Assembly (NCBI GenBank): GCA_902790215.1
Contig: CADAQX010000009.1
Coordinates: forward strand, 1 to 64,000
Direction of reading: 5' to 3'
Source of the DNA: an uncultured Bacteroidota bacterium
GTDB taxonomy: Bacteria > Bacteroidota > Bacteroidia > Bacteroidales > P3
Length of the DNA stretch: 64,000 nucleotides
The translations under genes and the position numbers were made by a program. The notes beneath the pieces are model-generated. The model had not been told where the DNA came from, made no database searches, and saw nothing but the letters and a program-made list of their open reading frames with translations. This document shows positions 7,749 to 59,321 of the stretch, one piece after another (positions within the stretch are counted from its first letter, which is position 1; each line of letters opens with the position of its first letter).

Positions 7749-7907
7749 CAACAATTATTTGAAATAATAAGCCTAATTTGACATATTAGGCTTATCGATT
7801 TGATACAGCACGGGTTACCGCTCAATTCCCCACCGTCATCCGGCCGATGGCGGCACCCTGCGTGTAGCGAGAGCGTATCCCGGCCCGATGAAGAGACAAT
7901 GAAGGGT

Positions 7908-8144
7908 CGTCATTTATTCGATCGTTATTCGATCGTTTTCCCATCGTTTTCCCTTTCACAAAGGGAAAAATGAGGGAAACATATCGAAAAACGATATGAT
8001 AAAGAACGACGCAACGTCGAACCCGGAAGGCGAACAGAAGAACGTTGAGTACAAATATGCGACACTTTCGGAACGGTGGAGTAAGTTGGCGAAAGTTGGC
8101 GTAATCCCTCACAGAATAAAACGTAACTTCCGCGCGAAGCGGCA
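7908..8144. repeat. Dispersed intergenic repeat, copy A
   Basis: About 237 bp shared with 53779-54005. The outer parts are nearly identical: CGTCATTTATTCGATCGTTA at one end and ACTTCCGCGCGAAGCGGCA at the other. The middle has drifted and copy A is about 10 bp longer. Internal palindromes are TTTCCCTTT-CAC-AAAGGGAAA and CATATCG-AAAAA-CGATATG, plus a direct repeat of ATTCGATCGTT. No transposase, terminal inverted repeats or target duplication is visible. Confidence 0.85.
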
Positions 8145-16957: not shown

Positions 16958-16992
16958 CGTTTTAAAATTGAAAAGTGAAAATTGAAATATTG

Positions 16993-17057
16993 CGTTAATG
17001 TGTTAATTCGTTAATTCGTGAGTCATTTGACCGCGCCAAGGACTAACACATTCACAC
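16993..17057. repeat. Word-array hairpin, family A variant
   Basis: Contains GTTAATGTGTTAATTCGTTA, the core TTTGACCGCGCCAAG (17026-17040) and the opposite arm GACTAACACATTCACAC. The core matches those of the elements at 17062, 23236 and 54058, while the flanking words differ (TTAATTCG instead of TTGCTTGA). Confidence 0.6.
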
Positions 17058-17061
17058 TTTA

Positions 17062-17155
17062 AATGATTGCTTGATTGTCTGATTGCTTGATTGTTTGAGT
17101 AATTCTGACTGCGCCAGCACTCAAGCATTGACACAATCAAGCATTCAAGCAATAG
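17062..17155. repeat. Word-array hairpin, family A
   Basis: Left arm built from TGATTGCTTGATTG words, core CTGACTGCGCCAG (17105-17117) flanked by GAGT and ACTC, right arm CAAGCATT...CAATCAAGCATTCAAGCAAT. The arms are imperfect inverted repeats of each other. Confidence 0.75.
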
Positions 17156-17201: not shown

Positions 17202-18266
17202 ATGAATCGGTTTGAAAAATACTATCCCTATCAAGGAGAAGAGTTTAGGCAAGTGATGGCTGCTTTGGCAGAGCATCGGATTGCCCAATCGCTCTTTCCC
17301 GAGTTGTCGCAAGACGACCTGCGGCGTCGTTTTGCGGCCTATCGCGACGTGCGCGATTTTCAGGCCGATGCCATGTACCGCGGCTGTCGCTACGTGGTGG
17401 AACACACCATGAGCCAATTCACCTGGTCGGGTGCCGAACACCTGGACGGAAGCCCCAGACTCTTTATCTCCAACCACCGCGACATCGTGCTGGACACCAT
17501 GCTGCTGCAATACCTGCTTATCTCCCTCGGCCGGGACACCACCCACGTGGTGGTGGGCACCAACCTCTTTGAAATGCCCCTCATGGCTCAGATGGCTCGG
17601 GTCAATAAAATGTTCGGCATCGACCGTGGCGGCAACCGCATGGAATATTACCAAAGCCTCATCGAAATGTCGGCCTATCTGCGCCATTTGGTCACCGAAC
17701 GCCGCGAGAGTGCCTGGATAGCCCAGCGCAATGGACGCACCAAAGACGGCATAGACCGTACCGACCCCGCACTGCTGAAAATGATAGCTGCCACAGGCAA
17801 TCCTTCCGACCCAGTTGGAGCCCTCCACGCCATGCATATTGTACCCCTTTGCGTCAGCTACGAATGGGAGCCCTGCGGACGGCAGAAAGCCCGCGAGGTG
17901 TGCCTCCGCCGACAAGGACCCTACGTCAAAGCCCCCGGTGAGGACACACAAAGCATCGTCAACGGCATCATGGACTTCAAAGGCCGTGTACACCTGTCCG
18001 TGTGCCCTCCTCTAACACTCGACGAACTGGCCACCACCGACGGCGACTTTCACCAAGTGGCTGCTCTCATCGACCGCAGCATCGCCCAAGGACGCACCAC
18101 ATTCGACAACAACCGCATCGCCAAAGCCATGCTCGATGGCAGACCGCTGCCCGACAGCAAAGCCACTGCCGACTTCCAACGCTACATCGACGACGCCTGC
18201 GCCCAGTACCCCGATTGCGACAACTACCGCACCACGCTGCTACAAATCTACGCCAACAGCGTCTGA
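17202..18266 (+). CDS. PlsC-like glycerolipid acyltransferase
   Basis: The 354-aa product carries the acyltransferase block I ISNHRDIVLDTMLL (a Bacteroidota variant of NHxxxxD), then VVGTNLFEMPLM, a block with FGIDRGGNRMEYYQSL, and the block III-like IAQRNGRTKDGIDRTDPALL, followed by IVPLCVSYEWEPC. These suit acyl transfer to lysophosphatidic acid or a related acceptor at the inner membrane; the exact substrate is uncertain. There is no clear transmembrane helix. It is followed after 120 bases of word-array repeats by prfA on the same strand. Confidence 0.8.
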   Translation: MNRFEKYYPYQGEEFRQVMAALAEHRIAQSLFPELSQDDLRRRFAAYRDVRDFQADAMYRGCRYVVEHTMSQFTWSGAEHLDGSPRLFISNHRDIVLDTMLLQYLLISLGRDTTHVVVGTNLFEMPLMAQMARVNKMFGIDRGGNRMEYYQSLIEMSAYLRHLVTERRESAWIAQRNGRTKDGIDRTDPALLKMIAATGNPSDPVGALHAMHIVPLCVSYEWEPCGRQKAREVCLRRQGPYVKAPGEDTQSIVNGIMDFKGRVHLSVCPPLTLDELATTDGDFHQVAALIDRSIAQGRTTFDNNRIAKAMLDGRPLPDSKATADFQRYIDDACAQYPDCDNYRTTLLQIYANSV

Positions 18267-18331
18267 AAAATTGAAAATTGAAAATTGAAAGTTGGCTGCC
18301 GCATCCAGATATCTTTTCACTTTTCACTTCG
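18267..18331. repeat. Word-array hairpin, family B
   Basis: AAAATTG words (three copies) lead into the core GTTGGCTGCCGCATCCAGAT (18291-18310), followed by CTTTTCACTTTTCACTTCG. The same core occurs at 59266 and, inverted, at 20380. Confidence 0.7.
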
Positions 18332-18375
18332 TCAAGCAATAACTCAAGCAATCAAACAATCAAGCAATCAAGCAA
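18332..18375. repeat. Word array, family A half-element
   Basis: CAAGCAATAACTCAAGCAAT followed by further CAATCAAG words up to 11 bases before the prfA start codon. Only the CAAGCAAT arm is present; there is no TTGAC core. Confidence 0.65.
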
Positions 18376-18386
18376 TAATACAAGAT

Positions 18387-19457
18387 ATGTTAGACAAACT
18401 CGAAGCCATTTACTCACGGTATCAGGAGATAGAACAACAAATGAACGACCCGCAGATAACTGCGGACATGAAGCGTTACGTAAAACTGAGCAAAGACTAC
18501 AAAGACCTGCAGCCGGTGGTGAAAGCTTACCACGACTACAAGGCATTGCTTGACAATATTGCAGAGTGCAAGGAACTGCTCAGTACGGAGAAAGACGAAG
18601 AGCTGCGCGAGATGGCCAAGCAGGAACTCGCTGAAAGCACCGAGAAACGTGACAAGATGGAGGAAGAAATCCGCATCATGCTCATTCCCGCCGACCCCAC
18701 CGACAGCAAGAACGCAGTGGTCGAGATACGCGGCGGCACGGGCGGCGACGAGGCCTGCATCTTTGCCGGCGACCTTTTCCGCATGTACACCCGCTACTGT
18801 GAAAAGAAGCACTGGAAAGTGGAAGTCGTAGATTTCAACGAGGGCACCGCAGGCGGATACAAAGACATCACCTTCAACGTCACGGGCGAGAAAGTCTATG
18901 GCATGCTCAAATACGAGAGCGGCGTGCACCGTGTGCAGCGCGTCCCCGCCACCGAGACACAAGGCCGCGTCCACACTTCCGCAGCCGGTGTTGTTGTGCT
19001 GCCCGAGGCTGAAGAGTTCGATGTGGAACTGAACATGGCCGATGTCAAGAAAGAGACCTTCTGCGCCTCGGGTCCCGGAGGGCAGTGCGTCAACACCACC
19101 TACTCTGCTGTGCGCCTCACCCACATCCCTACAGGCATTGTGGTATCCATGCAGGACCAGAAGTCGCAGATAAAGAACATGGAGAAAGCCCTTTCGCTCC
19201 TGCGCACACGACTCTACGAGCGCGAATACAACAAATACATGGAAGAGATGTCCACCAAGCGCAAGACCATGGTGGCCACCGGCGACCGCAGTGAGAAAGT
19301 GCGCACTTATAACTACCCCCAGAGCCGTGTCACCGACCACCGCATCGGTTACACCATGTACAACCTTCCCGCCTTCATGGACGGTGACATCGAAGACCTT
19401 ATCGACGCCCTCCAGTTAGCTGAGAACGCCGAGAAGCTGAAAGAAAGCGTCGGCTGA
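18387..19457 (+). CDS. prfA: Peptide chain release factor 1
   Basis: RF1 ends translation at UAA and UAG. The 356-aa product has the PAT anticodon tripeptide (HRVQRVPATETQGR), which distinguishes RF1 from RF2, and the catalytic GGQ in CASGPGGQCVNTTYSAVR. The N-terminal coiled domain and the end helices (FMDGDIEDLIDALQL) are complete. The start at 18387 (MLDKLEAIYSRYQEIE) is the normal RF1 N-terminus; the longer frame from 18285 would translate the repeat array upstream. Confidence 0.95.
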   Translation: MLDKLEAIYSRYQEIEQQMNDPQITADMKRYVKLSKDYKDLQPVVKAYHDYKALLDNIAECKELLSTEKDEELREMAKQELAESTEKRDKMEEEIRIMLIPADPTDSKNAVVEIRGGTGGDEACIFAGDLFRMYTRYCEKKHWKVEVVDFNEGTAGGYKDITFNVTGEKVYGMLKYESGVHRVQRVPATETQGRVHTSAAGVVVLPEAEEFDVELNMADVKKETFCASGPGGQCVNTTYSAVRLTHIPTGIVVSMQDQKSQIKNMEKALSLLRTRLYEREYNKYMEEMSTKRKTMVATGDRSEKVRTYNYPQSRVTDHRIGYTMYNLPAFMDGDIEDLIDALQLAENAEKLKESVG

Positions 19458-20278: not shown

Positions 20279-20295
20279 GTCAAGTTTTATTTGAG

Positions 20296-20477
20296 ATGTT
20301 GAGGGTTTTAGGGTTTAAGGGTTAAAAGATTGCTTGATTGTTTGATTGCTTGATTGTTTGAAAGTTGAGAGTTGGGAATTATCCGGGAGCGGCAGCGACT
20401 TTCAATTTTCAATTTTCAATTTTCAATTCGTCAAACCCTTCTCCCCTAAAACCTTAAAACCCTATAACCCTTAATAT
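20296..20477. repeat. Nested composite of three word-array families (E, A, B, E)
   Basis: From left to right: GGGTTTTAGGGTTTAAGGGTT (about 20303-20323); TTGCTTGATTGTTTGATTG words (20329-20360, family A); an inverted family B element with core ATCCGGGAGCGGCAGC (20381-20396) and TCAATTTTCAATTTTC words; then CTAAAACCTTAAAACCC and ATAACCCTTAA (20446-20474), which mirrors the left end. The outer and inner parts are inverted repeats around each other. Confidence 0.75.
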
Positions 20478-20483
20478 TTGTGT

Positions 20484-23225
20484 TTAGGGTACAAGGCCGA
20501 TGCCTACTTTGATGGTGAGGATATTGGACAGAATGGCGTCGGCATAGTGGAAGTAAGGGCGTACATCGCTTTCAAAGCCCACTACTTTGAGCAAGCCGTA
20601 TGTAAAGCCATAATCTATCTGGTAGTTAAGTAGCAGGTGTTTGTAGAATATGTAGTTGCGTCCAATGCCGAGGTGGATGCCGTAAGTGTTGTTCATGTGT
20701 TTGCCGTCGGGCAGGGAGAATCGTGTCATGTGGACACCGTAGTCAAAATAATAGCCCAACGGGGCAAAGTCGCTGTTTTTGTAGTGCCGCAGTTCGAGAC
20801 CGAGAGTGAACAAGTTGCGCGAGCTGACAGCGATGGAGTCAAACCCCGTGTAATATCCATACTCTGAATAGCGGGACACATGGTAAGTTTGTGTAACGTC
20901 GGTGTAAGACTTGTGGTATCGGGCCGAGAAGGCAAGCGACAGGCTGCGCGACAGGGCAAACTCGGCAGATGCCCAGGGTGTGACGGCGAAGATGTGGTTG
21001 AGTTTTAAGGGCTGGTAGCCGCTGAGGCTTAGGTTGGCTCCAGCGGCAAAGGCAAAACGGTGGCCCATGAAACCCACAGGTTCGCGCTTGGAGGGCTTGA
21101 GAGCACGGCGGTAGGTGTCATAGAGCATGGCATCAACAAGTGAAGGGTGATCGGCCACGTTGTAGGAATAGGCTTGACGGGTGAGCATGCGTCCTTCGCG
21201 AGCATCAGCTACAAGTGACACCATGGTGGTGTGCTCCAACCCGGTGAGGGAGGACGACAAGACAAGAGGTGCAAAGGGGACAAGCAAGGCATAGAAGGGC
21301 GAGATAGCGCCTCGCTGTCCTTCGTTGTTGAGGACAGCAGTCATGGTGAGCGTTCGTGCACCATAGCGGTCGAGGAGGCTATCCATGACCGGCTGGGTGA
21401 TGCGGCAAAGGCTGAAACGCCCTTTGGTAAGCCAGAACTCGTTCATCCATTCACACACGGTGAGGAAGTCGTTGTATTGGGTGTCGGAGACCATGGTGTG
21501 CATGCCCTGGTCGGAGAAATCGACGGTGTTGCCGCCAAGGTGGTGCACCGTCTGGACGATGCGCTTGGCAATGTCGTCCTCCCGTGTGTTGCTTTTGGAA
21601 GTAATGAGGTTGTCGTGTTTATCGACCACCCAGTAGTTGGGGTTGAAGAGGAGCATGGCCTGAGAGGATGTGTCGAACTTGGCCGGTGCGGGGGTGGCGG
21701 TACCATCGAGGTGGCGGCGCAGGTGGGTGGCAAGGGCGGTGTCGGCCATAAGGAGGTCGGTGAGGGCATAGGCGGTGGGATTGCGGCGGGTCTGGCTTTG
21801 CCGTTTCTGTTTGATGCGCTCATATTTGGTAAGGTTCTTGTAGGCGGCAGTGTCGGTGGTGGCAGCGCTGTCGTCGGCAACAGTCGGGGTGGAAAGAAAG
21901 TCAGGAGTGGATTTATTAAGCGTGGTGCGGAGCAGCTCCATGAGGTGGTGCGACATGGCTGTATAATGCCCATCGGAAGGAAAGCGGAGGTGTGCTTGCC
22001 ATGCGCAGTGCAGGGCGGCCAGGGTGGCCTGTTCTGCAGACATAGTATGGAGGGCATAGCTCACCTGCTGGCTCTCGCCTTCGATCTTGTGGTAGTCGTC
22101 GGCAAGGATATCCTCGCGGTCGTTGCATTTTGCCACGGCGGTGCAATAGAGCGCATGGGCATGGTAGCGGTTGAGTATGGGGTCATCAGGGGCAAGGCGG
22201 AGGAGAAGCCAGCTGTTGTAGCAGGCTCGGGCGAAGTGGCCGTGCAAGAGGTCCTGGCGTATGCATTCCATGCGTGCGGCATGGCGCAGACGGTTGAATT
22301 CATCGGGGGATGACATCAGGTATTTCTCTCCGCCGGAGTGACCCGCCAAAGCCTGTGCAGTGCGGTGGCGGCGAGAGAGAATGTTGGGGTGGGTACTTTG
22401 CCTATCGTCGTAGTTGTCGCGGGCGGTGATGTCGGCCACGGTGTCGAGCCAGCAGCCGGTAAGCTTATAGTATGGGGTGTTGAAATGGGTGGTGTCAAAG
22501 GGTATGTCGTCGAAAGGCAGTTCGCTGTACTGCAGTATGTCGAAAACGCTTTCGGTTACCTCTTTCCAGTAAGGGCTGCCGAGGTAAAATAGGGCAATGC
22601 CGAGCGAGTCGGCCTCGTTCTCCATCTCCCGGCTGCGGGCATGGAGGCGCATAAAGTCGCCTGCCTGCTCTGCCTCGTCGTCAAGGTCCGGGTCTTTGTC
22701 CCCTTTTTTCTTCTTGTCGGCTTTCTTCTTCTTGTCCCCCACAAGGGTCTCCATGCCGTGGGCGCGGTAGTAGTGTATGATTTCATGGGCGATGATAAAA
22801 GCCAGTTGCGCCTCGTTCTCCAGCTGTGCCACAAGTCCCGCATTGATGAATATCATGCCCTGGGGGGTGGTGAAAGCATTGACAACGGGGCTGGTGACGG
22901 TGTAGAAACGTAGTTCGGAACGCAGTTGGGGGTAGTCCTTGAGGAGTGTGTCGGCAATGCGAGCGGCAAGGAGGCTGATGGAGTCGCCATAGACAATATG
23001 GCCGCCAGCCAGCATCTTGTTGATGCGATAGGAGGCCTCGAGCAGCTGCTGCCGGTCGCGCACGCGCCTGCCGGCGTATTGTTCGGCACGCTGTACGTCG
23101 GTGTCGTATAGTTGCTGCACGCTCATCTTGAGGTCGGCGGGCACAGGGCCACGGCTGCGCAGAGTCTGGGCACAGACCAGTTGGACGGCTGCCACAGCAG
23201 CAAGGAGCAATAGAGTTTTCTTCAT
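20484..23225 (-). CDS. M48-family metalloprotease with C-terminal outer-membrane barrel-like domain
   Basis: A 913-aa exported protein with signal peptide MKKTLLLLAAVAAVQLVCAQ. An M48 peptidase domain follows, with zinc motif HEIIH at 147-151 and third-ligand region EMENEADSLG near 200-209; a Lys/Asp-rich insert (about 164-185) separates the two. The middle (about 330-700) contains helical segments and a Pro/Ala-rich linker. Residues 721-913 are about 190 residues of amphipathic strands with many Tyr/Phe (AFALSRSLSLAFSARYHKSY, LFTLGLELRHYKNSD), resembling an 8-stranded barrel. M48 proteins in the envelope (BepA/LoiP type) help outer-membrane assembly; fusion to a barrel is unusual. The start at 23225 puts the signal peptide first. 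Confidence 0.75.
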   Translation of the reverse strand: MKKTLLLLAAVAAVQLVCAQTLRSRGPVPADLKMSVQQLYDTDVQRAEQYAGRRVRDRQQLLEASYRINKMLAGGHIVYGDSISLLAARIADTLLKDYPQLRSELRFYTVTSPVVNAFTTPQGMIFINAGLVAQLENEAQLAFIIAHEIIHYYRAHGMETLVGDKKKKADKKKKGDKDPDLDDEAEQAGDFMRLHARSREMENEADSLGIALFYLGSPYWKEVTESVFDILQYSELPFDDIPFDTTHFNTPYYKLTGCWLDTVADITARDNYDDRQSTHPNILSRRHRTAQALAGHSGGEKYLMSSPDEFNRLRHAARMECIRQDLLHGHFARACYNSWLLLRLAPDDPILNRYHAHALYCTAVAKCNDREDILADDYHKIEGESQQVSYALHTMSAEQATLAALHCAWQAHLRFPSDGHYTAMSHHLMELLRTTLNKSTPDFLSTPTVADDSAATTDTAAYKNLTKYERIKQKRQSQTRRNPTAYALTDLLMADTALATHLRRHLDGTATPAPAKFDTSSQAMLLFNPNYWVVDKHDNLITSKSNTREDDIAKRIVQTVHHLGGNTVDFSDQGMHTMVSDTQYNDFLTVCEWMNEFWLTKGRFSLCRITQPVMDSLLDRYGARTLTMTAVLNNEGQRGAISPFYALLVPFAPLVLSSSLTGLEHTTMVSLVADAREGRMLTRQAYSYNVADHPSLVDAMLYDTYRRALKPSKREPVGFMGHRFAFAAGANLSLSGYQPLKLNHIFAVTPWASAEFALSRSLSLAFSARYHKSYTDVTQTYHVSRYSEYGYYTGFDSIAVSSRNLFTLGLELRHYKNSDFAPLGYYFDYGVHMTRFSLPDGKHMNNTYGIHLGIGRNYIFYKHLLLNYQIDYGFTYGLLKVVGFESDVRPYFHYADAILSNILTIKVGIGLVP

Positions 23226-23235
23226 AGAGCCGGTA

Positions 23236-23360
23236 TGAATGCTTGATTGTTTGAATGCTTGATTGCTTGAGTGATTGCTTGATTGTTTGAGTGATTGTTT
23301 GAGTGATTTGACCGCGTCAGCACTCAAGCATTTACACACTCAAGCATTCAAGCAATAACT
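23236..23360. repeat. Word-array hairpin, family A (largest copy)
   Basis: Left arm has six or more TTGCTTGAT/TGATTGTTTGAG words. The core TTGACCGCGTCAG (23308-23320) is bracketed by TTGAGTG and CACTCAA. The right arm is CAAGCATT...CACTCAAGCATTCAAGCAAT. It fills the gap between the M48-barrel gene and the upstream secreted-protein gene. Confidence 0.8.
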
Positions 23361-23366
23361 CAACTT

Positions 23367-24812
23367 TCACTTTTCAATTTTCACTTTAGTTAATTGCTGC
23401 CGGTTGCCCGAGGTGAGCAAAACGATATACTCACCCGGAGTGTCGAGGCTGTGTGCCGGCCCGGCCAAGGTCTGGCGCGAGAGTTCTATGAAACTCAAGT
23501 CTTCTTTGCCGTCGTGCGTGAGTGTCCACACATTCAGTGTGGCTTTACTTTTAAACGGGGAGAAGAGTTTCACCTGTTTCGAAGGCGGAAAGGAGATATT
23601 GGCAATGTGGTCGGTCCAGGCCAGCATGACACCCGTAGGGGTGGGCAGCCATTTGTAGTCGAGATAGTCGCGGTCGTTCCAACTGGTGTTGGTGGTGGTT
23701 CGTTTCGCGGTGGTCCACAGTATCTTGCCGTTGGGGTCAACGCGCATGACCATCATCCCCATGCGTTGCTCTCCGGTAGGCACCCCGTTCAGAGTTGTTG
23801 TCCAAGACTGGTCAACCATCAGGTATGCCCCGTCGCTGTCGGCTATGCGCTGGCATATATGCCCGAACTGCACCCACAGGTGGCGCTGGTCGCGGTCTTC
23901 TTTGTCGTTGCAGAGCCGGTTTACCTCCTGCATGGTGAAAGGATGGTGCTGCACAGTGAGCTTTTTGCCGGCTATGTTGTAGCAATAGATGTCGATGCCA
24001 TCAATATTGGCACCGACGGGCATGAGCGTGTGGCTCTCGTGGCGGACGGCTGTGGCAAGCAGTATGTTGCCATTGCCGTAGCGCAGCAGTTCACGTTGCA
24101 GAACCATGTCGCCTTCGGGCAGTTTGAACTCGACGTTGCGAATATCCTCGCCGTCGAGGATGGTGAAGCGGCATTCGCCATTAGCGCCGAATGAATAAAG
24201 GATGACATCGCCTTCGTCAGTGGCATAAATATTGTCGAAATTGGAGCGGGAGCAGTTCTGTGTCCAGTAGGCCTCCAGCTGGTGGTTATACAAACACACC
24301 TTCACCTCCGTGCCCTGCGCCGTGCGGTCGGCCACAAAAACACCCGCCAACAGTTTCCCGTTGGGCGACACGGCATTGCCGAAGTAGAAACGGTCGCCCT
24401 TCTCGCCGCTGTAGTCGGCCAACATCAGGGGCTCGCCTTCGGGAGCAAGGGTGGCAAGACTGCGACGGTCGCGATACACGCGCATGCCCTCTCCGATAAA
24501 AGTGGAGTAGAGCAGGTCTATATGCCCGTCGTTGATGAAGCCGCCATAGCAGCGGTAGTCTTCGCCGCCGTCCAAGCCGGCACGGCACTGCTCTTTGAGC
24601 CCGAGAGTATATTTCACCAGCTCCAAACGGTTCTTGAGGCGGCCGCTGCGCTGTATAAGCACAACGCTCTCGCCGTCGCACCCGATAAAATGGGGAATGC
24701 TGTTCTTGACAATGCCTTTGCCTACAGGCAACTGGTCAAATGTGATGGTCTGTGCCTGCAACCCCGTGGCAAGCAGCAGGGCGGCAAGCAGCGACAGGAG
24801 ATTCTTTTTCAT
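23367..24812 (-). CDS. Secreted protein of unknown function, probable beta-propeller
   Basis: A 481-aa exported protein with signal peptide MKKNLLSLLAALLLATGLQA. The body has repeated strand-turn patterns such as FGNAVSPNGKLLAGVFVAD, MMVMRVDPNGKILWTTAKR and TPTGVMLAWTDHIANIS, which suggest propeller blades, but no catalytic signature. An ATG two codons upstream (24818) is an alternative start. Its last codons (TKVKIEK-stop) lie inside an AAAATTG word tract. It is the sixth gene of a leftward run that begins with an ECF sigma factor at 27330. Confidence 0.6.
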   Translation of the reverse strand: MKKNLLSLLAALLLATGLQAQTITFDQLPVGKGIVKNSIPHFIGCDGESVVLIQRSGRLKNRLELVKYTLGLKEQCRAGLDGGEDYRCYGGFINDGHIDLLYSTFIGEGMRVYRDRRSLATLAPEGEPLMLADYSGEKGDRFYFGNAVSPNGKLLAGVFVADRTAQGTEVKVCLYNHQLEAYWTQNCSRSNFDNIYATDEGDVILYSFGANGECRFTILDGEDIRNVEFKLPEGDMVLQRELLRYGNGNILLATAVRHESHTLMPVGANIDGIDIYCYNIAGKKLTVQHHPFTMQEVNRLCNDKEDRDQRHLWVQFGHICQRIADSDGAYLMVDQSWTTTLNGVPTGEQRMGMMVMRVDPNGKILWTTAKRTTTNTSWNDRDYLDYKWLPTPTGVMLAWTDHIANISFPPSKQVKLFSPFKSKATLNVWTLTHDGKEDLSFIELSRQTLAGPAHSLDTPGEYIVLLTSGNRQQLTKVKIEK

Positions 24813-24840
24813 AAACATAAAGGATTGAGGAGTGTGAGGG

Positions 24841-25569
24841 TTAACGTATGAATTTGTATCCAACGCCTATCATGAGTCCGTAGTTTGAGGTGAGGTTTTT
24901 GTCCTCGTCAAAAAAGCGGATGGGGATATGTACCTTGGCCGTGGCTGTGGCGAAGAAGTTGTCGGTAAAGTAATAGTATGCTCCTACTGTGCCGCTGAAT
25001 CCGGCATGCATCCCGAAGGTGGGTTTTCTCATGGGGGACTCCTCGCGAGTCACGGTGCCTGTCACCTTGTCGGTGCGGGTAAGGGTGGAGTTGCGTGAGG
25101 TGAGGAAACTCTCGTAGAGGCCGGGTGCGATGTAGAGGCTCAGGTTTTCCGTCAGGTAGTATCCCACCATGAAACGTTCCTCTACTGCAAGTGTCCATTC
25201 TTTCGTCTCAAAGCGCAGCCATTTCCCCCTGTTGGGGTCGTTTGCTTGCGAAGGCTGCTGATCGCCGTCGAGGTTATAAACGAGTCCGGTGATGGCATAG
25301 TTCAGTTCTGCCTGGAATCCAGTGACCCACTTCGTACCCATGGCCATCTCGCCGTCGTAGCGGAATGAAAACGAAAGGGGCAGCCTCTCACGGATGTCGG
25401 TGGCATCGGGCGCCAGCTTGCTCGGCTGGTAGAAGGAGCCGACATGAAGGCTGAAAAGGTTGTCGCCCGTCCAGGGTGCGGTGGCTGGCTGGTAATGGTA
25501 GATGACTTGTGCCGAGGCGGCACCGCCTGCAAGCATGGCCGCCAGAAGAATGAATAGGTGTTTTTTCAT
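24841..25569 (-). CDS. Putative outer-membrane beta-barrel protein
   Basis: A 242-aa exported protein with signal peptide MKKHLFILLAAMLAGGAASA. Amphipathic strands (FSFRYDGEMAMGTKWVTGFQ, LSLYIAPGLYESFLTSR, GTVGAYYYFTDNFFATATAK) end in YGLMIGVGYKFIR, as in outer-membrane barrel proteins of this phylum. No exact family is recognised. It sits 18 bases downstream of a lipoprotein gene and 28 bases upstream of the propeller-like gene, within the sigma-factor-headed cluster. Confidence 0.65.
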   Translation of the reverse strand: MKKHLFILLAAMLAGGAASAQVIYHYQPATAPWTGDNLFSLHVGSFYQPSKLAPDATDIRERLPLSFSFRYDGEMAMGTKWVTGFQAELNYAITGLVYNLDGDQQPSQANDPNRGKWLRFETKEWTLAVEERFMVGYYLTENLSLYIAPGLYESFLTSRNSTLTRTDKVTGTVTREESPMRKPTFGMHAGFSGTVGAYYYFTDNFFATATAKVHIPIRFFDEDKNLTSNYGLMIGVGYKFIR

Positions 25570-44794: not shown

Positions 44795-44957
44795 CGCAGT
44801 ATTTTTTTCATATAACGCAACAGCTGCCTCATTATTGTGTCCTGTCTTATTCTTTAACCCAAATCACTACTGAAGTCGTCCAGATGACCAACTGGGGGTT
44901 AATGGCAGGGTCTCACCCCATACCAAGCACCATCTTTTCCCCATTTGTCTTCTACAT

Positions 44958-45013
44958 TTATTCCTTCATTATTCGTTTCAGAAAGGAAAAGGGAACGAAT
45001 AACAAAGGAATAA
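44958..45013. repeat. TATTCGTT-type hairpin related to 54161-54210
   Basis: TTATTCCTT (44958-44966) pairs with AAGGAATAA (45005-45013), and ATTCGTT (44971-44977) with AACGAAT (44994-45000). The stretch to 45030 shares TATTCGTTYC, AAGG, GAATAAC, GAACGA and ACAACG blocks in the same order with 54161-54210. Confidence 0.5.
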
Positions 45014-45033
45014 GGAACGACGTTACAACGACG

Positions 45034-45798
45034 CTACGACGAGCCGTCATATATGCCGGGCCATTCTGCCGCACGCCATATTTCCCAGCTGAGCTCGGCC
45101 TGCCTGTGGAGCATGGCCAGTCCACCACAGACGACGGCTCCACGCTCTGCCGCGCAGCAAAGAAAACGAGTGGGCGAAGGGTTGTAGACCAAGTCATAGC
45201 ACAGGTGGCGCGGACCGATACAGGAACTTTCCGGCCACGGTGTACCCTCCACATCGGGATGCATACCCACGGGCGTGGCATTGACGATAATCAGGTGTGT
45301 CGAGGCCATGGCGACGGCCTGTGCATAGGACACTGCCCCAGAATGAAGGTCCGGACAGCGCGAAACCATGGTGCAGCCTATGCCCATGCCCCGCAGCGCA
45401 TAAGTCACGGCCTTGGCGGCACCGCCCGTGCCCAGCACAAGTGCCTCGCGGTGCCAGGGCTGCAACAGGGGTGCAAGGGTTTCGGCAAAGGCCGGAGCAT
45501 CGGTATTGTGACCGACAAGCCTGCCGTCCTGCCTCACGACACAGTTGACCGCGCCAATGCCTCTCGCCGCTGCATCGATGTCGTCGAGGCAGTCCATGAC
45601 GGCCTCCTTGTAGGGTATGGTGACATTGAAGCCCGAAATGTCGTTGTCGTGTACCCAACGGCGCAGATTGTCGACAGAATCCATTTCATAGAGCCTGTAG
45701 ACTGCATCGGTGACACCCTCGCGACGCCACCGCTCCGCAAACCACTGCGGCGACTGAGAATGGGAGAGTTTTTTGCCTATCAAACCGTATTGTTTCAT
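45034..45798 (-). CDS. aroE: Shikimate dehydrogenase
   Basis: AroE reduces 3-dehydroshikimate to shikimate with NADPH. The 254-aa product has the substrate motif LIGKKLSHSQSPQWF, FNVTIPYKEAVMDCLD with the catalytic Lys, GHNTDAPAF, the NADP motif LVLGTGGAAKAVTYAL and the C-terminal GGLAMLHRQAELSWEIW. The -7 element ends four bases before the ATG, so the mRNA is probably leaderless. A decayed C-terminal copy lies at 15673. Confidence 0.95.
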   Translation of the reverse strand: MKQYGLIGKKLSHSQSPQWFAERWRREGVTDAVYRLYEMDSVDNLRRWVHDNDISGFNVTIPYKEAVMDCLDDIDAAARGIGAVNCVVRQDGRLVGHNTDAPAFAETLAPLLQPWHREALVLGTGGAAKAVTYALRGMGIGCTMVSRCPDLHSGAVSYAQAVAMASTHLIIVNATPVGMHPDVEGTPWPESSCIGPRHLCYDLVYNPSPTRFLCCAAERGAVVCGGLAMLHRQAELSWEIWRAAEWPGIYDGSS

Positions 45799-45802
45799 GG
45801 TG

Positions 45803-45810
45803 CAAATTTA
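45803..45810 (-). promoter_or_regulatory. -7 promoter element of aroE (TAAATTTG)
   Basis: On the minus strand TAAATTTG-CACC-ATG, the same four-base spacing as recX and the 16945 gene. Confidence 0.65.
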
Positions 45811-45841
45811 CGAATTAATTGGCAATTTTCAATTTTCTTCG

Positions 45842-45849
45842 TATCTTTG
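45842..45849 (+). promoter_or_regulatory. -7 promoter element of the EEP-nth operon (TATCTTTG)
   Basis: TATCTTTG 22 bases upstream of the ATG at 45872, divergent from the aroE promoter. Confidence 0.7.
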
Positions 45850-45871
45850 CAATTTAAAGTATTTGCCCGTC

Positions 45872-46942
45872 ATGAAGAAAATACTGTGTATAATACTGCT
45901 AATTATCAACCTAATTGCGGCGGCGGCACTGATACTCTCCACCCTGGCCGGGGCGGTTGAGCCAAGCCGCATGGCTGTTATTTCCATTCTCAGCTACGGA
46001 TATTTCATTTTTCTACTGGCCAACGTGGTGTTTATCATCATCTGGCTTTTCCTGTCGCGATGGGAGTTTCTCGTGTCGGTGGCGGCCATTGCCGTGCGCT
46101 TCTCGTTTGTGCCGCTGTTCTTCCAGGTGGGCGGTACCTTGGATGTAGAACCGGAAGACAACACGTTGAAGATATTGACCTTGAACGCCCATTCCTTCAA
46201 AGGGCTGGACAACGACACGCTGATGACAGCCGACTCGGGGGCCTTGATGTTCTTGGAACTGCTGGACCGCGAGCAACCCGACGTGATGTGCCTGCAGGAG
46301 TTCTTCCGTCCGAAACATGTGTCGCTGGTTGACAGCATAGAAGCCCGTGGCTACCAGTATCACTATGGGGTGCACGGGAGCAACACCCGCTCACAGGCTA
46401 TTCTCTTTTCGCGCTGCAAGATGCTGAAGGGCTACGACATGGACAGGAAGTCGAAGTTCTATGCCGACATTGAGAAGAACGGGCATACGGTACGGGTATG
46501 CTGTGTGCATCTGGACTCGTACCAACTGGACGAGGACGACTTGGAGAGTTTTGAGAACCTTTCCCACGCCAAGGCCGACAGCACGACGCACCGGCTGATG
46601 AAGAAGTTTGCCGAGACCACACGTCAGCATGAGCGGGAGTGGAAAGAGGAGTTGAAACCGCTGGTGGAAGAGAGCACTGTGCCACTGATTATCGCGGGGG
46701 ACTTCAACGACACCCCGGCATCGTATATCTACCAACAGGCCACCGACCTGCTGTCAGACCCCTATGTGGAACAGGGACGCGGTTTCGGCACTACCTACCA
46801 TGGACCCTACCCCGCTTTCCGCATAGACTACATACTCCACAGCCACGATCTGGAAGCCCTTTCATACAAACGCATACCCTCAGCCATTTCAGACCACTAC
46901 CCTATCGTGGTGACGTTGAGAATGAATGTTAACAAACAATAG
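45872..46942 (+). CDS. Membrane-anchored endonuclease/exonuclease/phosphatase family protein
   Basis: 356 aa. Two or three N-terminal transmembrane helices (MKKILCIILLIINLIAAAAL, and YFIFLLANVVFIIIWLFLS) precede an EEP domain with LNAHSFKG, VMCLQEFF with the metal-binding Glu, IIAGDFNDTP and a SDHYPI end containing the catalytic His. EEP enzymes cut phosphodiesters in nucleic acids or lipids; the target is unknown. The start at 45872 is chosen because the longer frame from 45773 overlaps aroE and the promoter. It is the first gene of a run to 53592. Confidence 0.85.
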   Translation: MKKILCIILLIINLIAAAALILSTLAGAVEPSRMAVISILSYGYFIFLLANVVFIIIWLFLSRWEFLVSVAAIAVRFSFVPLFFQVGGTLDVEPEDNTLKILTLNAHSFKGLDNDTLMTADSGALMFLELLDREQPDVMCLQEFFRPKHVSLVDSIEARGYQYHYGVHGSNTRSQAILFSRCKMLKGYDMDRKSKFYADIEKNGHTVRVCCVHLDSYQLDEDDLESFENLSHAKADSTTHRLMKKFAETTRQHEREWKEELKPLVEESTVPLIIAGDFNDTPASYIYQQATDLLSDPYVEQGRGFGTTYHGPYPAFRIDYILHSHDLEALSYKRIPSAISDHYPIVVTLRMNVNKQ

Positions 46943-53592: not shown

Positions 53593-53778
53593 TCCCTCGG
53601 GGCGCTCTTCCCCCCAATCGTCTTCTCGTTCTTCTCCTATCGTTATCCTACATTTATCCCAAATCGGTCATTAGGGTTCCCCACTTGACATGACGAGGCC
53701 GAGAAAGCCTGTCCCATCGCCACTGAGGAACACGCGCTCTTAATAGGCCCTACCCTGTATGTAGAAACCATCAAGCGC

Positions 53779-54005
53779 CGTCATTTATTCGATCGTTATT
53801 CGATCGTTTTCCACTCTTTTTCCCTTTCACAAAGGGAAAAATGAGGGAAACATATCGAAAAACGATATGATAAAGAACGACGCAACACCGGGCTCTGAAG
53901 GCGCACTGAGGAACGTTGGGGACAAATATACGACACTATCGGAACACTGACGAAAGTTGGCGTAATACTTCACAGAATAAAGAGTAACTTCCGCGCGAAG
54001 CGGCA
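53779..54005. repeat. Dispersed intergenic repeat, copy B
   Basis: About 227 bp matching 7908-8144 over its full length. It keeps the same palindromes (TTTCCCTTT-CAC-AAAGGGAAA; CATATCG-AAAAA-CGATATG) and the same ends (CGTCATTTATTCGATCG and TTCCGCGCGAAGCGGCA). Confidence 0.85.
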
Positions 54006-54057
54006 GAAAGCAAAGTAAGAAGTAAGAGATAAGAACCAGGATTGTATGCCACTGAGA

Positions 54058-54140
54058 TATTGCTTGAATGTGTAATTGCTTGAGTAATTTGACTGCGCCA
54101 GTCACTCAGACAATCAAGCAATCAGACAATCAAGCAATAC
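54058..54140. repeat. Word-array hairpin, family A
   Basis: TTGCTTGAATGTGTAATTGC, the core TTTGACTGCGCCAG (54088-54101), then CACTCAGACAATCAAGCAAT and a second CAATCAAGCAAT word. Confidence 0.75.
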
Positions 54141-54295: not shown

Positions 54296-56117
54296 ATGAA
54301 AGAAAAACGTTGGATATTAAGGGAAGATTATGACAAAGAGGTAGTTAAAAAACTTGCGGAAGCATTAGGAGTTGACGAAATTATCGCCACGCTGCTTGTG
54401 TTTCTTCCGTCCAAGCTTGGACCAATTGCATGACCCTTTCCTGATGAAGGACATGGACCGCGCCATTGCACGCATCAATGAGGCGGTACGCCGCCACGAG
54501 CGAATCCTGGTATATGGGGATTACGACGTGGACGGCACATCGGCTGTTGCTCTGGTGTACTCCTACCTCAGTACATTCCACCGCAACATCGACTTTTACA
54601 TCCCCGACCGCGACAGCGAGGGGTACGGCATTTCATTTAAAGGCATTGACTACGCCCGCGACACTGGGGTGAAGTTGATTATTGCCCTTGACTGCGGCAT
54701 CAAGGCCATGGAACAGGTGGCCTATGCCGCAGGGTTCGGCATCGACTTTATCATCGGCGACCACCATCTGCCCGACGGCGACAATATCCCCGCCGCCGTG
54801 GCGGTGCTCGACCCCAAGCGCGAGGACTGCCCCTATCCTTACAAGGAGCTGTCCGGCTGCGGCATCGGCTTCAAGATTGTGGAAGCCCACCAGGAACAGC
54901 GGGTGGGTGTACGCCTGTGCGACGCACCTGACAGCCTTGACGAGGCCCGGCGCGAGAAACGCGACGCCCTGCAGCTGCGTCTGCTCAAATACCTGGACTT
55001 GGTGGCCGTGAGCATCGCCTCCGACATCGTGCCGATCATGGGAGAAAACCGCGTGCTTGCCTCCTACGGCCTGAAGGTCATCAACACCCATCCCCGTCCC
55101 GGCATCGAGGCCATTCTGCGCTACGGACATGTGGACCGCCGCCCAGCCTCCCAGCCGGGAGCCACGGAACAACCGGCTCAGCCGCAGCAGGCAGGCTATT
55201 TCGAGAAAGAGCTGAACATTACCGACCTGGTGTTTCTGGTGGGTCCACGCATCAATGCCGCAGGCCGGATACGAAGCGCCTTCGACTCCGTAAGGTTGCT
55301 GCTGAGTGACAATCCCGCACAGGCGGAGCTGCTGGCAAAGGAAATCGACGAGTTCAACAAGCAGCGCAAAGACCTCGACAGTGCGGCCACCGAGGAGGCC
55401 AAACACCGCATCGAGGCCGATGCTGTGATGCGCGGACGCAAAAGCATAGTACTTTACGACGAGAACTGGCACAAGGGCGTGGTGGGCATTGTGGCCTCCC
55501 GCTTAGTGGAGGCGTTCTACAAACCCACGGTTATCTTTACCAAATCCACCACCGACGACCTCTACACGGGGTCGGCACGCAGCATCAAGGAGTTCGACGT
55601 GCATGCCGCCCTGGAGCAGTGCAGCGACCTGCTGGAGCATTTCGGCGGTCACCGCTGTGCGGCGGGAGTGTCGGTAAAGCCCGAAAACCTGGAGGCTTTC
55701 AAGCTGCGCTTTGAGGAGGTGGTGAACAACACCCTGCCGCCCGAGGTCATGACTCCGGAGATAGAGATTGACGCCGAGATAGACTTCGGCAAGCATATCA
55801 CGCCCAAGTTCCTGCGCATATTGAAGCAGTTCGGTCCCTTCGGCCCTGAGAACAATATGCCAGTGTTTATGTCGCACAGCTTGGTGGACACGGGTTACCC
55901 CCGCGTGGTGGGCACCAACCACTTGAAGTTTAATGTCATCTCCCTGCTGTCGCGGTCGCGGTCGTTCCCTGCCATCGGTTTCCAGCTGGGCAAGCACTTC
56001 CCCCGCGTCAAGAAAGGGGAACCTTTCACCATCTGCTACACGCTGGAAGAGAACTACTGGAACGGCAGAACCGACATACAAATCAACGTGAAAGACCTCC
56101 GCTTCGACGAAGACTAA
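54296..56117 (+). pseudogene. recJ: Single-stranded-DNA exonuclease RecJ, frameshifted by a short deletion
   Basis: The first 35 codons from ATG 54296 (MKEKRWILREDYDKEVVKKL...ATLLV) are the normal Bacteroidota RecJ N-terminus, but this frame stops at 54431-54433. The rest continues in another frame from 54402 (FFRPSLDQLHDPFLMKDMD) to 56117. Between LLV and FFRPSL about twelve residues of the family (xRGxxTFxxAxx) are missing, a net loss of about 35 bases. Downstream motifs are intact: DYDVDG, ALDCGIKA, DHHLPDG, GPRINAAGR, HKGVVGIVASRL. A Pro/Gln-rich insert lies near 55142-55195. An ATG at 54444 could still give a protein with the DHH core. It could be a real pseudogene or an assembly error. 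Confidence 0.8.
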
Positions 56118-59231: not shown

Positions 59232-59235
59232 GTGA

Positions 59236-59309
59236 CAATTGAAAATTGAAAGTTGAAAATTGAAAGTTGCTGCCGCACCCGGACAATTCTCAACTCTCAA
59301 CTTTTTCAA
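59236..59309. repeat. Word-array hairpin, family B
   Basis: AATTGAAAATTGAAAGTTG and AAAATTGAAAG words, the core GTTGCTGCCGCACCCGGA (59266-59283), then CAATTCTCAACTCTCAACTT. It lies 13 bases before the next start codon. Confidence 0.75.
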
Positions 59310-59321
59310 TAATTCATACTT

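Follow-up and report, generated by a model that had tools for sequence, protein, structure and literature searches.

A palindromic repeat of about 90 bp is dispersed through the genome of an uncultured Bacteroidales bacterium (assembly GCA_902790215.1), and we think it probable that this repeat, which is found in one genus and has no gene of its own, multiplies by copying its units to new places. The stretch from which the analysis started, hereafter the window, comprises the first 64,000 nucleotides of contig CADAQX010000009.1. Mobility is inferred here from the positions and edges of the copies and would involve a candidate enzyme acting in trans: sharp-edged units without an own gene stand at mostly different places in two genomes, and we therefore read them as nonautonomous mobile elements.

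Elements in the window were surveyed by direct reading of the sequence and with a covariance model built from 67 copies. Inverted arrays of CAAGCAAT-type words around a core, described earlier by the sequence-only reading, are seen in all three full elements. The first of them (17064..17155, plus strand) is in canonical orientation, with its core at 17105-17117 (CTGACTGCGCCAG) and a model E value of 1.5e-15 for 17064-17151, this copy being absent from the training rows of the model. The second (23236..23360, plus strand; core 23308-23320, TTGACCGCGTCAG; E 2.1e-14 for 23268-23354, with the copy, L023, among the training rows) has a lengthened left arm; its neighbours on either side are an M48 peptidase-domain gene (20484-23225, minus strand) and an ORF without Pfam match (23367-24863, minus strand). 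The third (54058..54140, plus strand; core 54089-54101; E 2.9e-13 for 54049-54136, again with the copy, L024, among the training rows) represents a flipped subtype, in which the arms are exchanged and the direction of the core is unchanged; it is located upstream of a RecJ-like gene (54372-56117). The same layout had been claimed for four places. The fourth, at 17027, proved to be a cousin, because its core (TTGACCGCGCCAAG) is set in GTTAATTCG words and not in CAAG words, which leaves three full places. This cousin (16987..17063, plus strand) has GTTAATTCG-word arms around a like core at 17027-17039 (TTGACCGCGCCAA) and a model E value of 0.0018, and its 30-base centre has two exact matches in the genome.

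Two half-elements complete the survey. One, already proposed at 18332, spans 18332..18377 (plus strand) and consists of right-arm words alone (model E 2.4e-6, minus strand, over 18260-18378); it stands just upstream of a prfA-like gene at 18387, named from its sequence. The other, which the earlier reading had missed, is located at 20327..20361 (plus strand), consists of left-arm words alone (E 3.1e-5 over 20327-20430) and lies within a bigger cluster of word arrays, of 7 and 8 bases, at about 20290-20480. Within the window, the core taken by itself carries little weight: when two mismatches are allowed it is matched 16 times against 12.3 expected, 14 of 100 shuffles reach 16, and one extra core-like match, at 45545, falls inside a long ORF (44884-45960). 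Other inverted word palindromes are also present, at 18267-18330, 59233-59310 and 20290-20480. They are composed of TTGAAAA words, 7 bases long, that enclose a CTGCCGCA-like centre, and also of AGGGTTTT words; TTGAAAA-type words are frequent flanks of CAAG elements genome-wide.

Copies are by no means confined to the window. The whole genome (2.98 Mb, 40 contigs) contains 78 matches of the core with at most one mismatch, 44 of them exact, versus 17 matches of the reversed pattern, and a 22-base pattern allowed up to two mismatches is found 55 times, versus no match of its reversed control. Of 69 references collected from several genomes, 67 entered the alignment, from which two L062 rows were omitted; three others had been dropped beforehand, namely the window row, the cousin L049, and L076, the last because it is too near its end. 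Their consensus reads GATTGCTTGATTGTCTGATTGCTTGATTGTTTGAGT(A/G)AT TTGACYGCGYCAG (C)CACTCAAGCATTAACACAATCAAGCATTCAAGCAATA. As the copies were gathered with the core pattern, constancy of the core is partly a matter of construction; this does not apply to the arms and edges. In the unit, left-arm words occupy about 30 bp and lead into TTGAGT; a GC-rich centre follows, and then a right arm of about 36 bp from CACTC. Per-base information is near background beyond about -30 from TTGAGT (47 copies of the own genome) and beyond about +36 from CACTC (44 copies of the own genome). Such a sharp drop at both edges argues for a discrete unit of about 90 bp that is copied as a whole, and not for a drifting spacer. 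A search for target duplications in 21 copies, at 9 offsets and 6 lengths, found none: the highest z shown was 2.57, and identity averaged 0.36, versus 0.30 for shuffled sequences.

The claim that the core is kept as word number and order vary agrees with the genome-wide matches and the aligned copies, which together present a dispersed, mainly intergenic family. Typed versions of the element are imperfect palindromes of 86-90 bp. Two of the 47 copies are identical across a stretch of 88 bases and the remainder differ. An arm may be cut or replaced, as in L007 and L025, which run past the core into 7-base TTTCAAT words. Copy numbers reach the tens in several genomes. By eye, five of the 47 copies belong to the flipped type (L005 at 1492, L009, L018, L024 and L035), and three more look mixed (L001, L014 at 2188 and L027). 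Core and word versions differ by species, and shorter centres (TTGACTGCGCAAG, TTGACGCGTCAG, CTGACGCGTCAG and similar ones) are common in the 20 loci read from other species.

At a threshold of E 1e-4, the model has matches in 55 of the 120 genomes searched in the genus, a count that includes the own genome, and none in 65; across the family the figure is 55 of 190 genomes, all in one of 12 genera, with none among the 70 genomes outside that genus, where at most 36 (genus) and 23 (family) candidates per genome were scored under stricter filters and weak matches may be lost. A viral or plasmid origin was rejected, the 22-base pattern having no exact match in viral contigs and the 17064 element no match in plasmids. 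An autonomous parent between elements was rejected as well: no transposase was noticed by eye among the ORFs of six loci that contain close element pairs or long stretches, and these ORFs look like ordinary host genes.

Copies are found in all spacer types, and an orientation bias is not clear. Simple ORF calling was applied to 48 copies, three of which, at locus edges, stayed unclassed; of the remaining 45 (one being the cousin L049), 30 lie between tandem genes (13 along the genes, 17 against), 8 between convergent and 7 between divergent ones, the type being rough in 13 of the 45 because a called ORF covers the element. Several copies leave no more than about 10 bp of the spacer free next to either called gene.

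Comparison with another copy-rich genome, G037, revealed few shared positions. In G037, 29 elements in 20 loci were read, as against 50 loci in the own genome; three loci share a neighbour gene that is more than 80% identical, and at least two of the 29 elements stand in the same spacer as an own-genome copy, a lower bound since the own-genome set is incomplete. At the window sites, inspected by eye in relatives that are other species, the element is carried by none of seven at 17064, none of eight at 18332 and none of four at 23236; these sites hold other word arrays or none. Absence at the three sites fits gain here or loss there. At the 17064 site, locus L204 (genome G044) contains, at about 670-1460, a long array of CCCTGAGTTCG-like words of about 11 bases. 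Movement is not continual, since some copies (L139-L141) have been retained at a single position by several species.

The spacer between genes resembling subunits of 2-oxoacid oxidoreductase (named from their reading frames) was matched in 107 of the 120 genomes, and the 30 loci listed were read by eye. Three carry a CAAG element, six other inverted word palindromes, 11 tandem arrays of words of about 9 bases, three other sequence, and seven a short spacer of 18-24 bp; in this last group one coding flank is about 97% identical to that of a filled site, and the opposite flank 89-95%. Because the 9-base array occurs in the own genome at that place with one weak match elsewhere, it looks local, and the CAAG unit is dispersed. 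This diversity of arrays in one spacer, together with the varying number of arm words, speaks for the idea that arrays are born locally by slippage or hairpin-driven mutation, resemble each other through shared seed words, and owe the spread of their commonest form to gene conversion. We regard such an origin as unlikely, however, since dozens of places have units with a like centre, words in a like order inside them, and the same sharp ends. For the claim that the element is "mobile or templated", few positions shared between two copy-rich genomes, absence at three window sites in the relatives read, and sharp edges lend indirect support to its first half, and not to the second.

The presence of a palindromic, multi-copy unit for which no target duplication was found also suits the mechanism of Y1 transposases, and the element might be a usual REP/REPIN mobilised by a RAYT (Y1 HUH) transposase whose gene lies at another place in the genome. 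The own genome does possess two Y1 proteins, one of them flanked by palindromes of another sort. Several observations nevertheless make us doubt this explanation. The surroundings of the two Y1 genes, read over 6 kb and 12 kb, contain no element core, and one of the genes starts 252 bp from a contig end. Element-bearing genomes show no enrichment in Y1 transposases (37 of 55, versus 36 of 65 other genomes; Fisher p 0.195), and no Y1 match was obtained in G093 (98% complete, 21 scored copies) and G014 (97%, 17 copies), or in G037, G104 and G019 (81-85% complete). The unit is also about 90 bp long. The element differs from the REP/RAYT system in lying beside neither of the two Y1 genes of the own genome, within the stretches read, and in showing no co-occurrence with Y1. 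As for the two Y1 genes themselves, L083:253-708 (contig 8 of G000) encodes a 151-residue Y1 transposase with GGCCTTTCAGGCC- and CCCAGGGCGTTGCCCTGGG-type palindromes on both sides and looks like a RAYT with its own REP family. The other, L084:4371-6053 (contig 19 of G000), is a 560-residue frame in which a Y1-like domain is placed inside an apparent transcription regulator, named as such by eye.

In-frame elements were found in coding sequence at two sites, both in other species. In a ligase-like gene, named from its frame, 23 of 25 loci were placeable (2 unplaceable) and 19 were distinct, and in a permease-like gene 26 of 29 (3 unplaceable); four of the placed loci repeat a place. The 19 distinct ligase-like loci comprise one with a CAAG element, three in which both arms are made of TTGCGTTA words and enclose the same centre, one with a 7-base array, one with a short hairpin, and 13 that lack any word array. 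In the permease-like gene, the full element is present at two loci, L210 has the arms but lacks the GCG centre, two loci combine TTGAGAA left words with a TTGACTGCGCAAG centre after them, and 21 have no word array. Length differences at both sites are all multiples of three, one stop-free frame is present in two of four element versions tested, and the element stands where relatives have a variable linker. Neither a clean split nor an empty site was seen at the two coding sites or in the oxidoreductase spacer; as the element replaces other sequence in all of them, a clean empty site is never encountered.

These sites bear on the question of what part of the unit is inherited. Possibly the centre is what is inherited and moves, and the arms are replaced once the unit has arrived, by a copying process that draws on short words peculiar to the species and can write the inverse word on the other side. 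Like cores are indeed set in CAAG and in GTTAATTCG arms within one window. At the ligase-like site, the CTGACGCGTCAG centre is accompanied by TTGATTGC words in one species and, at the same codons, by TTGCGTTA words on both sides in three others, one of which has one base of the centre changed; in two further species, TTGAGAA words precede the TTGACTGCGCAAG centre and are confined to its left side. We nonetheless hold a two-part repeat with interchangeable arms to be quite improbable, as arms do not covary among copies of one genome.

Strong hairpins are predicted for the unit: eight folds of five elements (three of them on both strands) gave z from -2.9 to -6.1 as DNA, and the same eight gave -4.3 to -6.8 as RNA. 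The two arms, whose covariation had been put forward as a check, did not covary: RNAalifold predicted seven pairs, none with a two-sided change. Own arms likewise paired no better than swapped ones. In 32 copies (44 minus the flipped, mixed and cut ones) both had an energy of -29.34, 992 of 2000 permutations were as good, and shuffled left arms reached -12.0. With flipped and cut copies kept in (44 copies), own arms paired worse than all 2000 permutations, and 96 of 2000 permutations did as well as own arms in a set of 15 elements from other species. Equal energies of own and swapped arms indicate that the palindrome is a property of the family and is not mended copy by copy. A hairpin whose arms do not covary could mean that the hairpin itself matters little.

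The strength of the predicted hairpin as RNA and the location of several copies within about 10 bp of called gene ends would be in keeping with a functional RNA or DNA site under selection, such as a terminator, a processing hairpin, an attenuator or a protein-binding site. We judge this very unlikely. The element occurs in both orientations and in all three spacer types, lacks covariation, is placed in frame inside proteins in other species, and has no match in more than half of the genus genomes. An intrinsic terminator was rejected in particular: the consensus ends in GCAATA, the right flank is not a T tract, and the hairpin is not tied to 3' ends. A structured RNA was rejected as the main reading, given the lack of covariation and an Rfam search of the window in which tRNA was the sole match.

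We accordingly return to the nonautonomous mobile repeat as the preferred reading. In its proposed cycle, a trans-acting enzyme would recognise the hairpin or the centre as single-stranded or cruciform DNA and would paste the unit without target duplication. Insertions would survive where they are least harmful, that is in spacers and flexible protein linkers. The octamer words may then change in number and kind via slippage and recombination between copies, a turnover of the arms suggested by their varying word number. Such an element probably has no single regulatory job, and its effects on neighbouring transcripts would be local.

In behaviour, the nearest known relatives appear, on our best reading, to be the Rickettsia palindromic elements (RPEs). 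RPEs are described as short palindromes of about 105-150 bp, present in spacers and in frame in conserved protein genes, with target duplication marked "?" (PMC2229807, PMC10969869). Solubility and activity with and without the inserted peptide are reported for a Rickettsia guanylate kinase (PMC2229807). As described, the two groups share short palindromic units in spacers and, in frame, in genes; the typed versions of the present imperfect palindrome measure 86-90 bp. Unlike in RPEs, its arms are tandem 8-base words around a GC-rich centre, its host is a Bacteroidales genus, most copies read are intergenic, and other word arrays occupy the same sites. REPs are described as multi-copy, mainly extragenic palindromes, of 14-40 nt in E. 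coli (PMC12306157). The element resembles REPs, REPINs and BIMEs in being a multi-copy extragenic palindrome, and differs in its octamer arms and in its length of about 90 bp as compared with about 14-50 nt. BrickBuilt, a MITE of Porphyromonas gingivalis, is described as having 23-base direct repeats, a leader and a tail, IS5-like ends, and putative target duplications in three of four copies with both ends, and as being always intergenic (PMC4596501). BrickBuilt and other P. gingivalis MITEs share with the present element a Bacteroidales host, intergenic location and tandem words in a dispersed unit, and build and ends differ from those of BrickBuilt. The ends here are near-inverted (GATTGC/GCAATA), and, unlike in MITEs, the 21 copies yielded no target site duplication. 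Tandem 7-base words in spacers are also known from cyanobacteria, as short tandemly repeated repetitive (STRR) sequences, which are, to our knowledge, not inverted around a conserved centre. The present element shares with them the tandem short words in spacers and differs by their inversion around such a centre. A prior description of this family was not noticed in a literature search that had most subscription papers outside its reach.

In this genus, a lineage remote from Rickettsia, small palindromes occupy spacers and also lengthen proteins in frame at two of the sites read. One site is seen filled, differently filled and unfilled in relatives, and this variety makes the spread of gene-less repeats testable by comparison of strains. 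It is also a warning that exchange of repeats may bring about turnover of spacers and protein linkers in these genomes.

A separate dispersed repeat (53771..54005, plus strand) adjoins the 54058 element and has a second copy in the window at about 7888-8144. It lies at most 300 bp from 13 of 47 element copies, and the five flipped copies have in common a longer flank that contains it. About 240-400 bp long and carrying TTATTCGATCG words, it is a possible MITE, with inverted ends like AACCCGAATCGGTCGTTAGGG noticed by eye near 53605 and 54143. Another sequence joins the element itself in L020, L040, L042 and L052, where an insert GTTGTACAGGGTGAGAGC... or close to it meets the right arm after TTAAC or TTACC; in L020, TAAC recurs after the GTTGTACAGGGTGAGAGC-type insert, by eye as if duplicated on insertion.
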